From assembly GCF_000194605.1 (NCBI RefSeq), contig NC_015321.1:3100001-3164000 (forward strand): DNA of 64,000 bases. The letters run 5' to 3'. The DNA comes from Fluviicola taffensis DSM 16823 (lineage in GTDB: Bacteria > Bacteroidota > Bacteroidia > Flavobacteriales_D > Crocinitomicaceae). Positions 45,508 through 47,812 of this stretch are shown here, one piece after another (the stretch's first letter is position 1; the number at the start of each line of letters is the position of its first letter). Both the position numbers and the translations under genes were made by a program. The notes beneath the pieces were generated by a model. The model searched no databases and was not told where the DNA came from. It worked only from the letters and a program-made list of their open reading frames with translations.

Positions 45508-45515
45508 TACTTTTG
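45508..45515 (+). promoter_or_regulatory. Predicted -7 promoter element of the cobalamin riboswitch transcript
   Basis: TACTTTTG matches TAnnTTTG. A start about 6-7 bases later would begin exactly at the outer stem of the riboswitch (45522), which supports both calls. Confidence 0.65.
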
Positions 45516-45521
45516 CACCGC

Positions 45522-45680
45522 GATTTGGTTCCCGATTTTTTTCGGGATTAAAAGGGAATCCAGTGTAAATCTGGAGCTGTTCCCGCAACTGTAAGAGTCC
45601 ATATTTAATTTGTAATACCACTGATCCGATACGGGTTGGGAAGGTTAATTAAAGGACTGAGTCAGGAGACCTGCCAATCT
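45522..45680 (+). ncRNA. Cobalamin (B12) riboswitch
   Basis: The core is unmistakable. The region contains GGGAATCCAGTGTAAATCTGG with GCTGTTCCCGCAACTGTAAG (45554-45595), ACCACTG (45617-45623), GGGAAGG (45638-45644) and the B12 box AGTCAGGAGACCTGCC (45660-45675). The outer P1 stem forms between GATTTGG (45522-45528) and CCAATC (45674-45679) with a bulged T. It precedes the beta-propeller gene at 45811. The 130-base platform has a GTCAA...TTGAC hairpin near 45722-45743 rather than a clear terminator, so control may be by masking the translation start. Adenosylcobalamin versus aquocobalamin type is not resolved. Confidence 0.95.
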
Positions 45681-45810
45681 GCATGTACTGTAGCTTTCGG
45701 TGAAAAAGTGAAGGGGCGGATTGTCAAGTTATACATTGACGCATCATTCCTTTTTCATCATTTTAATAAAACAAACCTGACGATAAGTGTTGGGATAAAA
45801 CAAAAAAAAG

Positions 45811-47754
45811 ATGAAAAAAATCCAAGTATTACTTTGTGGATTAATCTTAACTACTACAACTATTAAACTTCAAGCGCAAACTACTTTTCGATTGGAATTG
45901 ATTGCTGAAGGTAATTTTGGAAGCACAAACGGAGATGTTTTTGTGCGTAATACAATGGTGAATCCAGCTACTACTTCTGCTGGAATGTATCAAACAGCAA
46001 ATAGTACTATTGGGTTTAATGTACTTCAGGATTATGTGATTGCTGGAAATAAAGCAATTCTCGCTGAGAAACCAAATGGTGCTGGTCGTATTGCAATTGT
46101 AAATTATCCATCGATGACGTTGGTACAGACTTTTGCTCAAGCTCCTCAAAACTTAGGGGTTGCAAGTCCCACAAAAGCTTATGCTTGCTATGCGCAAGGA
46201 GGAGTTGTTTCATTGATTGATTTGATGAACAACACATTGACTCCAGTTATTGAACCAAACAATGAAATTACTACTTACAGTAATCACATGAAGTTTGCCA
46301 ACGGATTTATGTATGTAGATCAGGGGCAACAATTGGTGAAAATAGATACGATTACAAATACAGTGGTTGCTAAATTTAATCCTGGAGTAGGTTCAATTGC
46401 AGGAATTACCTATGATAATCAGGGGAAACTATGGGTGATTGGCGGAACAAACCTTGTTTCGATTGATGTATTAAATGCTGATGCTTTGGGAACACCCGTA
46501 AATCTGGGGGTGAGCGGAAAGCTACTGCGTTATTACAATAACAAATTGTATTTCTGGACTCTAAGCAACAAAAAGTTGTTTCAATATGACATTGTTACTC
46601 CTCCTGTACTCCCTTTAACAGCTGTTTATACGAGTTTACTTACTGGTTCATGGGATTTTGGTTATGGGAGATCTTTTGATGTTGATCAAACTACCGGTGA
46701 TTTTGTCATTGCTACGGCTTCGGCTTTTACAGGACCTTCTGGATATGAGGTAGTTGATGGAGCAACTTTTACACTGATTGAATCAGGAAGTATTGCAGGT
46801 TGTATTGGTGCGAATAAATGTGTTTTGAAAACATTTCATCAACCAACTGGGCCAGCTCCTGTTCCTGATCAGGCTTCACTTTCAACTGTTTCAGGTCAAT
46901 GTAGTGCCACAGTAATAGCTCCAACTGCAGATAATGGTGTAGTAACGGGAACAACATCAAATCCTACGAGTTATACTTCGCAAGGAACTTATACAATTAC
47001 GTGGACTTTTACCAATGGGAATGGAACGACGACTCAAACTCAATCGGTTGTGGTTGATGATACAACTGATCCTTTAATTCCAATTTTGAATGATGCTACA
47101 GGAACTTGTTCGGTTACTCCAATAGCTCCAACAACTATTGATAATTGTGCAGGAACAATTACAGGAACAACTGCAACCGCTTTTCCAATTACTACAATTG
47201 GAACAACTGAAATAGAATGGACTTTCAATGATGGAAATGGAAATAGCATTACTGTTACTCAAGACATTGTTGTAACTGATAATACTGCTCCTGTAGCAAC
47301 TTCACTTTCGTCTTTGAATATTGCATGCAATGACGTGATTACAACAATCCCAACGGCTACAGATAATTGTGCTGGTACAATCACTGCAACAACAACTGAT
47401 CCATTGACTTATGCAACTCCAGGAACTTATACTATTGATTGGGTATTTGCAGATGGAAATGGAAATACTGCGAATGAATCACAAACCGTTGTAGTTTCTT
47501 GTTCGAGTGCAGGGTTGGGTGATTTAACGACTTCTGATTTATTGATTTATCCAATTCCAGCATCCAATTCGTTGAATATAGAGTCTGTTGCGTTGGGTGG
47601 TGAATTAGCAATCGTTTATGATGCACAAGGTCAAAAAGTATTGGAAACAAGTTTAGAAAGTGCTAAATCGACCTTGAATATTTCCGCTTTGGTGAATGGT
47701 TTCTACTTCTTGAAAGTGGGAAATTCAAGTGCTCGATTTGTAGTGAGTAAATAA
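45811..47754 (+). CDS. Riboswitch-controlled secreted beta-propeller (DUF5074/BtuG-like) with HYR repeats and T9SS domain
   Basis: A 647-residue exported protein under a cobalamin riboswitch. After the signal peptide (LILTTTTIKLQAQ) a beta-propeller of about 330 residues is visible, with repeated blades such as NHMKFANGFMYVDQGQQLVKIDTITNTVVAKF, AGITYDNQGKLWVIGGTNLVSIDVLNADALG and GKLLRYYNNKLYFWTLSNKKLFQYD, like the YncE/DUF5074 class. BtuG of Bacteroides, a surface B12-binding lipoprotein, has such a propeller. Three HYR-like Ig modules follow (LSTVSGQCSATVIAPTADNG; IPILNDATGTCSVTPIAPTT; LSSLNIACNDVITTIPTAT), and then a T9SS type A domain (IYPIPASNSLNIESVA ... VNGFYFLKVGNSSARFVVSK). A B12-capture role is inferred from the riboswitch plus the fold. 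No btuB or other B12 gene is adjacent and a terminator follows. Confidence 0.8.
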   Translation: MKKIQVLLCGLILTTTTIKLQAQTTFRLELIAEGNFGSTNGDVFVRNTMVNPATTSAGMYQTANSTIGFNVLQDYVIAGNKAILAEKPNGAGRIAIVNYPSMTLVQTFAQAPQNLGVASPTKAYACYAQGGVVSLIDLMNNTLTPVIEPNNEITTYSNHMKFANGFMYVDQGQQLVKIDTITNTVVAKFNPGVGSIAGITYDNQGKLWVIGGTNLVSIDVLNADALGTPVNLGVSGKLLRYYNNKLYFWTLSNKKLFQYDIVTPPVLPLTAVYTSLLTGSWDFGYGRSFDVDQTTGDFVIATASAFTGPSGYEVVDGATFTLIESGSIAGCIGANKCVLKTFHQPTGPAPVPDQASLSTVSGQCSATVIAPTADNGVVTGTTSNPTSYTSQGTYTITWTFTNGNGTTTQTQSVVVDDTTDPLIPILNDATGTCSVTPIAPTTIDNCAGTITGTTATAFPITTIGTTEIEWTFNDGNGNSITVTQDIVVTDNTAPVATSLSSLNIACNDVITTIPTATDNCAGTITATTTDPLTYATPGTYTIDWVFADGNGNTANESQTVVVSCSSAGLGDLTTSDLLIYPIPASNSLNIESVALGGELAIVYDAQGQKVLETSLESAKSTLNISALVNGFYFLKVGNSSARFVVSK

Positions 47755-47779
47755 AGATAAACCCACCACTATTCGAAAT

Positions 47780-47812
47780 AGGCTGTCTACTTCGGTGTGG
47801 ATAGCCTTTTTT
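47780..47812 (+). terminator. Intrinsic terminator of the propeller gene
   Basis: AGGCTGTCTAC (47780-47790) pairs with GTGGATAGCCT (47797-47807), with two G-T pairs, around a TTCGGT loop, followed by a run of six T. Confidence 0.88.

Follow-up and report, generated by a model that had tools for sequence, protein, structure and literature searches.

Capture of vitamin B12 by surface proteins is best known from gut Bacteroides, where the proteins are lipoproteins encoded together with BtuB. The nearest known system to the locus described here consists of BtuG1/BtuGH, BtuG2, and BtuG3 of Bacteroides (PDB 3DSM, 8BMY, 8BLW, and 8OKV). BtuG2 is described as gripping B12 between the loop Asn54–Thr64 and the beta5A loop (PMC10404256). 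Here, we analyzed a 64-kb stretch of the Fluviicola taffensis DSM 16823 genome (C1:3100001-3164000, hereafter the window; the genome is a single contig of 4,633,577 bases), in which a cobalamin riboswitch precedes a gene for a propeller protein with a type IX secretion system (T9SS) sorting tail. We consider it fairly probable that the protein belongs to a B12-regulated BtuG-family branch that is exported through the T9SS, captures corrinoids, and works with an unlinked receptor. We favor this reading because the riboswitch lies upstream of the gene at all 14 loci of the branch, while the neighboring genes differ between genera.

The window protein shares with BtuG a seven-bladed DUF5074-type propeller, a clamp loop containing EGxF and an Asn, control by a cobalamin riboswitch, and a host that relies on external B12. 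Unlike BtuG, it has a T9SS tail instead of a lipobox, its own transcript without btuB, HYR modules, and Gln in place of Arg133; it also lacks the beta5A lid loop and falls in a separate group of the tree. BtuK1 and BtuK2 (PDB 9S6C is BtuK1) resemble the window protein in being propellers of B12 systems other than the lid of BtuB, whereas they are lipoproteins encoded in the btu operon (PMC12751083). In a Foldseek search with the window propeller, the E-value was about 1e-10 for BtuK1 and 2e-17 for the top BtuG chain. The DUF4465 proteins (BtuJ1/J2 and F. taffensis F2I9N3) are exported B12 binders, as the window protein is proposed to be, and the DUF4465 protein of this genome likewise has a T9SS tail and a preceding B12 riboswitch. 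Unlike the window protein, they have a jelly-roll fold, belong to an unrelated domain family, and are encoded beside btuB. Among the matches listed from the open-licence PMC literature, we found no report of a T9SS-exported BtuG. The available excerpt of PMC12578637 mentions BtuG, T9SS, and Fluviicola, but not a T9SS-exported BtuG, and one paper among the matches listed names DUF5074, in what its excerpt gives as a mere listing within an Elizabethkingia vesicle proteome.

The locus contains the following elements.

45508–45692, + strand: cobalamin riboswitch aptamer RF00174 (119.9 bits, E 1.7e-29)
45508–45515, + strand: -7 promoter-like box TACTTTTG (TAnnTTTG), at the first base of the aptamer
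45693–45709, + strand: small hairpin GCTTTCGGTGAAAAAGT, immediately 3' of the aptamer; its TTTCGG core occurs in 14/14 leaders
45750–45759, + strand: putative switch strand CUUUUUCAUC, with two alternative partners in our model
45811–47754, + strand: exported-propeller gene, 647 residues, stop included (open reading frame list)
45811–45876, + strand: Sec signal peptide read by eye, likely cleaved after LQA (residue 22), without a lipobox
45880–46839, + strand: seven-bladed DUF5074/BtuG-like propeller, residues 24–343 (blade count read from the strand list of the model)
45904–45936, + strand: loop AEGNFGSTNGD, residues 32–42, counterpart of the B12-clamping loop Asn54–Thr64 of BtuG2
46858–47061, + strand: HYR-like module 1 (approximate bounds)
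47080–47310, + strand: HYR-like module 2 (approximate bounds)
47311–47502, + strand: HYR-like module 3
47545–47742, + strand: T9SS type A sorting domain, residues 579–644 (Por_Secre_tail, E 1.2e-10)
47780–47807, + strand: terminator-like hairpin with a T tail, 3' of the gene

This arrangement agrees with an earlier note on the window, which had described a full B12 riboswitch with a promoter box at its 5' stem, a single gene followed by a terminator, a product combining a propeller, three HYR modules, and a T9SS domain, a T9SS route to the surface in place of a lipoprotein anchor, and no adjacent BtuB. The riboswitch match is full length (model positions 1–189 of 189), lies far above the gathering score of 31.5 bits, and is the sole Rfam match at gathering level within the window. 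The gene is alone in its unit, since the nearest open reading frames of at least 80 residues on both sides run on the opposite strand, and a tblastn search of the window at 1e-3 found no BtuB homologue. The three HYR-like modules are mutually 44–52% identical (HYR_4C match, E 3.2e-9), and the second falls in a region present only in the four own-genus rows of alignment A1. Together with the C-terminal TIGR04183/PF18962 domain and the Sec signal, the genome encodes SprA of the T9SS (2399.9 bits), and the propeller would thus be exported as a type A cargo of this system.

The propeller, when scanned alone, matches DUF5074 (PF16819) with an E-value of 2.2e-11 and 43.9 bits, against a cut-off of 27.2; the protein scored 41 bits in the genome scan, and the domain was not reported when the whole 647-residue protein was scanned. 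For profile comparisons, we used alignments of the window protein with ten relatives (A2), of 18 lipoprotein BtuG-type proteins (A3), and of a 13-row set (A5) that includes the protein of genome G203 (L063), a member of another family with 433 residues, a propeller, a T9SS tail, and no HYR module seen. HHalign joined A2 and A3 with a probability of 99.3 and an E-value of 1.9e-20 over 267 columns at 16% identity. The G203 protein bridges both sides, matching A2 at 3.2e-28 and BtuG2 at 1.4e-10 (1e-10 to 2e-10 across the BtuG2 chains). Searched against the PDB, the A5 profile found BtuG2 and BtuG3 chains at 1.6e-13 to 1.3e-12, followed by 1l0q at 6e-10, and BtuK1 was absent among the 22 sequences matched at E 10. 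Pairwise searches failed: phmmer against the PDB sequences, with the whole protein or the propeller alone, found no BtuG, and BLASTP against the BtuG of the same genome gave nothing significant. The relationship to BtuG is therefore drawn from profile comparisons and from the predicted fold.

The AlphaFold2 model of the propeller (pLDDT 91.0, pTM 0.89) was compared with the PDB by Foldseek. Ranks 1–16 were all BtuG chains (E 2.1e-17 to 5.5e-14, TMq 0.76–0.79), followed by 1l0q (2.6e-11), BtuK1 (about 1e-10, TMq 0.74), and YncE (1.6e-10). The nearest structural relative is therefore BtuG and not BtuK1, which ranked beneath all 16 BtuG chains. The earlier note had likened the protein to BtuG and had named a fold unrelated to BtuG as an outcome that would speak against it; the predicted fold is that of BtuG. 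Besides the homologous seven-bladed propeller, other marks of BtuG are missing: the lipobox Cys of a surface lipoprotein (Cys-x-Lys occurs in 18/18 A3 rows and is absent from the window protein, as read by eye from the signal peptide), adjacency to btuB, the family-invariant Arg133, and the lid loop with Tyr239. Judged from the profiles and the predicted model, the window propeller is a distant homologue of BtuG and not BtuG proper.

The branch is patchily distributed. Fluviicola itself is placed in the Crocinitomicaceae. A family scan of 200 genomes (match threshold 1e-4) gave 13 matches, 12 of them strong, including the own genome (49–100% identity), whereas the thirteenth, G060, has a lipoprotein-type protein; the T9SS-propeller gene is thus present in 12/200 family genomes. 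We examined the loci of the 11 strong relatives with about 4 kb of flank on each side, and a cobalamin riboswitch lies directly 5' of the gene in every one. The order scan (1e-8) matched 21/399 genomes and added the T9SS-tailed propeller of G203. The class scan matched 93/395 genomes, and the best 30 of the 93 added G429, from a third family, with a 589-residue protein that has a propeller 46% identical to that of the window, two HYR-like modules (by eye), and a T9SS tail. Both additional genes are again preceded by a cobalamin riboswitch, so that the 14 loci comprise 13 intact genes and one remnant from three families. The T9SS domain is present in all 13 intact copies (the start codons of L029 and L037 were set by alignment, not by the first ATG). 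The genes flanking these loci vary from genus to genus. No BtuB homologue was detected around the 13 other loci (tblastn, 1e-3; about 4 kb per side for 11 of them, and with the contig ending about 0.9 kb from the G203 gene on one side). The earlier note had also considered that relatives might tie the gene to an unrelated conserved pathway; in the relatives, a B12 riboswitch again precedes the gene, and no unrelated pathway adjoins it. A family member at 75% identity is also carried by L042 (CP034120.1).

The remnant, in G013 (L038:4698-5993), is a propeller gene broken by an in-frame stop, with no T9SS tail seen. Its riboswitch still scores 113.4 bits, suggesting that the loss of the gene may be recent. 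This copy was included in the riboswitch count and excluded from the alignments and the tree.

Near the lipoprotein-type matches, no riboswitch was found within about 1.5 kb of flank (0/8 in the order scan; 0/19 in the class scan, best 30 of 93), a weak null because the switch of a btu operon precedes the whole operon (4/4 examined). A maximum likelihood tree was built from 49 propellers, namely the 13 T9SS-tailed ones and 36 of lipoprotein type (18 of the 29 loci L064–L092 and 18 of the 26 class-scan loci L098–L123). Near copies and loci whose longest central open reading frame was not cleanly a propeller were omitted, and lipoprotein status was assigned from an N-terminal Cys by eye, for 18 rows also by alignment. 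The 13 T9SS rows form one side of a branch against the 36 lipoprotein-type rows (bootstrap 100, SH-aLRT 97.9). A single origin of the T9SS-tailed branch explains this tree more simply than tails gained several times over, although the tree is no proof of it. Canonical BtuG occurs in 21 of 22 chosen genomes (12 with the T9SS-propeller gene and 10 without), including 11 of the 12 that carry the gene; the exception, G048, is 87% complete.

The -7 consensus of Bacteroidota promoters is TAnnTTTG. This motif occurs 67 times in the window, below the shuffle mean of 83, and the box is therefore uninformative when taken alone. Among the 14 related leaders, nine have a TAnnTTTG box at position 0 or -1 of the aptamer. 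The spacing from aptamer to start codon is 118 nt in the window and 85–118 nt across the 14 loci. The TTTCGG hairpin adopts the same five-pair fold in 12/14 leaders and a different three-pair fold in two (G048 and G033). In the window, CUUUUUCAUC can pair perfectly either with GGUGAAAAAG (45699–45708, the 3' half of the hairpin) or with GAUGAAAAA (45810–45818, the start-codon region). When the pairings were scored against 300 base-shuffled versions of each of the 14 leaders, the strand–hairpin pairing was unusual (p<=0.05) in 12, and the hairpin and start-codon pairings share more than one base in 13; because the leaders are related by descent, these tests are not independent of each other. 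The overall RNA fold of the window leader (45640–45830) did not surpass that of shuffled sequences (z -1.02). A loop–loop pair between CCGA (45626–45629) and UCGG of the hairpin looked good in the window but was dropped because its first loop is variable in the relatives. The leader would act by translational control that is off with B12, a direction we infer because riboswitch genes of B. theta are repressed by B12 (PMC6143338).

The earlier note had suggested that the protein may act in trans with a receptor elsewhere. A genome search located three cobalamin riboswitches. One of them opens a btu operon at C1:15330-20578, about 1.5 Mb from the window gene on the assumption that the contig is circular. 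The operon encodes, in order, a DUF4465 protein with a T9SS tail (167.3 bits, the sole DUF4465 gene of the genome), a TonB receptor (best NCBIfam match TonB-B12 at 1.7e-20, under the cut-off of that model), a DUF5074 lipoprotein (1.2e-67 to the BtuG1 chain 8blw_B; the genome has two DUF5074 genes), and a further T9SS-tailed protein. The same order is repeated in 3/3 relatives examined. A BtuB–BtuG receptor is thus available in trans, and with SprA the parts for both B12 uptake and T9SS export are at hand. The F. taffensis DUF4465 protein F2I9N3 bound B12 (PMC13398666) and is probably the product of the DUF4465 gene in this operon. MetH, methylmalonyl-CoA mutase, and IcmF, which depend on B12, are encoded, and CbiC, the only corrin-ring marker searched, is absent from the genome; the cell therefore uses B12 and is probably unable to make it.

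The last gene of the operon (L012:6599-7579, C1:19598-20578) encodes 326 residues, with the T9SS tail as its only Pfam match. Counterparts that are 43–46% identical occur in the btu operons of the three relatives, and the protein is a candidate part of B12 uptake. The third riboswitch (L013:15477-15618, minus strand; C1:4377476-4377617; 58.8 bits) precedes a gene for an 80-residue Cys-rich CWC protein (PF14375), which is not an uptake gene.

In the putative pocket, the counterpart of the clamp loop (residues 33–40) is the most conserved loop among the T9SS propellers (0.92). The BtuG2 clamp residues Glu55, Gly56, and Asn62 are retained in 13/13, and Phe58 is Phe in 11 and Tyr in two. Gln73, aligned with Gln93 of BtuG2, and Asp74 are invariant in 13/13. 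Net charge was set aside as a mark of BtuG-like steering, being weak for the window protein; it averages -11 in the 13 T9SS propellers (range -2 to -35) and -15 in the 18 lipoprotein BtuGs, and is -18 in BtuG2 (PMC10404256). Given its family and regulation, the propeller likely binds B12, with mixed evidence from the pocket.

Several observations weigh against corrinoid capture by a BtuG-type protein. Only 4 of the 13 members reach E 0.01 for DUF5074 individually, and the profile link to BtuG structures needs the G203 protein, as the 11-row A2 alone gave nothing significant. In the leaders, the start-codon helix is better than shuffles in just 5/14 at the 0.05 level and in 9/14 at 0.1. The more direct objections concern the pocket. 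Arg133 of BtuG2, which probably lines the pocket judging from its conservation, is Arg in 18/18 lipoprotein BtuGs and Gln in 13/13 T9SS propellers; Asn54 of the clamp loop is replaced by Ala in 12/13, and the beta5A loop with Tyr239 is absent in 12/13. The cavity residues Trp194 and Trp272 are also absent, although they are rare in lipoprotein BtuGs too (2/18 and 0/18). Conservation of the pocket-side loops does not exceed that of the opposite side (0.66 vs 0.71, permutation p 0.91), and the window propeller has a low net charge of -3. Moreover, in B. theta, B12 was bound by BtuK1 but not by the similar BtuK2 (PMC12751083). The altered residues, the lost lid loop, the ordinary conservation of the pocket face, the low charge, and the BtuK2 precedent would all suit a protein that has kept the BtuG fold and B12 control without B12 binding. 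Such a protein would recognize another ligand and use its HYR modules as spacers for adhesion; the ligand might, for example, be a partner in B12 uptake, or else the surface of cells or particles that supply B12. We regard this as unlikely, because it is the counterpart of the BtuG clamp loop that shows the highest loop conservation in the family, and because the Gln73–Asp74 pair is invariant.

A propeller that does bind B12 might instead serve as a released or surface-held sponge, storing the vitamin or starving competitors with no hand-over to BtuB–BtuG. The lack of a BtuB homologue in the examined stretches around any of the 14 loci and the canonical BtuG already present in 11 of the 12 gene-bearing family genomes are consistent with this role, and supplementing a coculture with BtuG protein can quench its corrinoid exchange (PMC13374852). 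However, a B12 riboswitch in a B12-using genome lacking CbiC suits uptake better than storage, and the same genome encodes two T9SS-tailed proteins together with BtuB and BtuG, so that a sponge appears quite improbable. Adhesins often carry HYR modules and T9SS tails, and the identity to BtuG is just about 16%; the protein could accordingly be a typical T9SS adhesin whose riboswitch is incidental and whose likeness to BtuG goes no further than the common propeller fold. This is very hard to reconcile with a riboswitch that persists at 14/14 loci amid changing neighbors, with a Foldseek ranking that puts every BtuG chain (worst 5.5e-14) ahead of other propellers (next 2.6e-11), and with the G203 relative that matches BtuG2 chains directly, and we give it next to no credence.

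In the favored reading of corrinoid capture, a single-gene unit repressed by B12 would yield the BtuG-family propeller. When cellular B12 is low, the start codon would be free; when the aptamer is bound by B12, the strand 45750–45759 would switch partner between the hairpin and the start codon, and the latter would be hidden. The T9SS would take the propeller across the outer membrane, where, having lost its sorting tail and standing on the HYR modules as spacers, it would bind extracellular corrinoids. These would be handed over in trans to the BtuB–BtuG receptor, which the genome encodes in another operon under a B12 riboswitch. The protein may even act in a siderophore-like manner in environmental Bacteroidota, as opposed to gut Bacteroides, being made only when B12 is scarce, leaving the cell, and returning corrinoids to the unlinked BtuB–BtuG; we put this forward tentatively and hold it to be doubtful. 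A siderophore-like mode has already been proposed for B. theta vesicles that carry BtuJ (PMC12751083).

In F. taffensis, one branch of the BtuG family is encoded apart from BtuB and carries a T9SS export signal, and the organism's own btu operon likewise gives DUF4465 such a signal. The 13 intact genes are candidates for testing, and as naturally occurring variants they could show whether a BtuG-type pocket functions with Gln replacing the conserved Arg. The T9SS signal on both the BtuG-like branch and DUF4465 suggests that an exported B12-scavenging layer may exist in other Bacteroidota.

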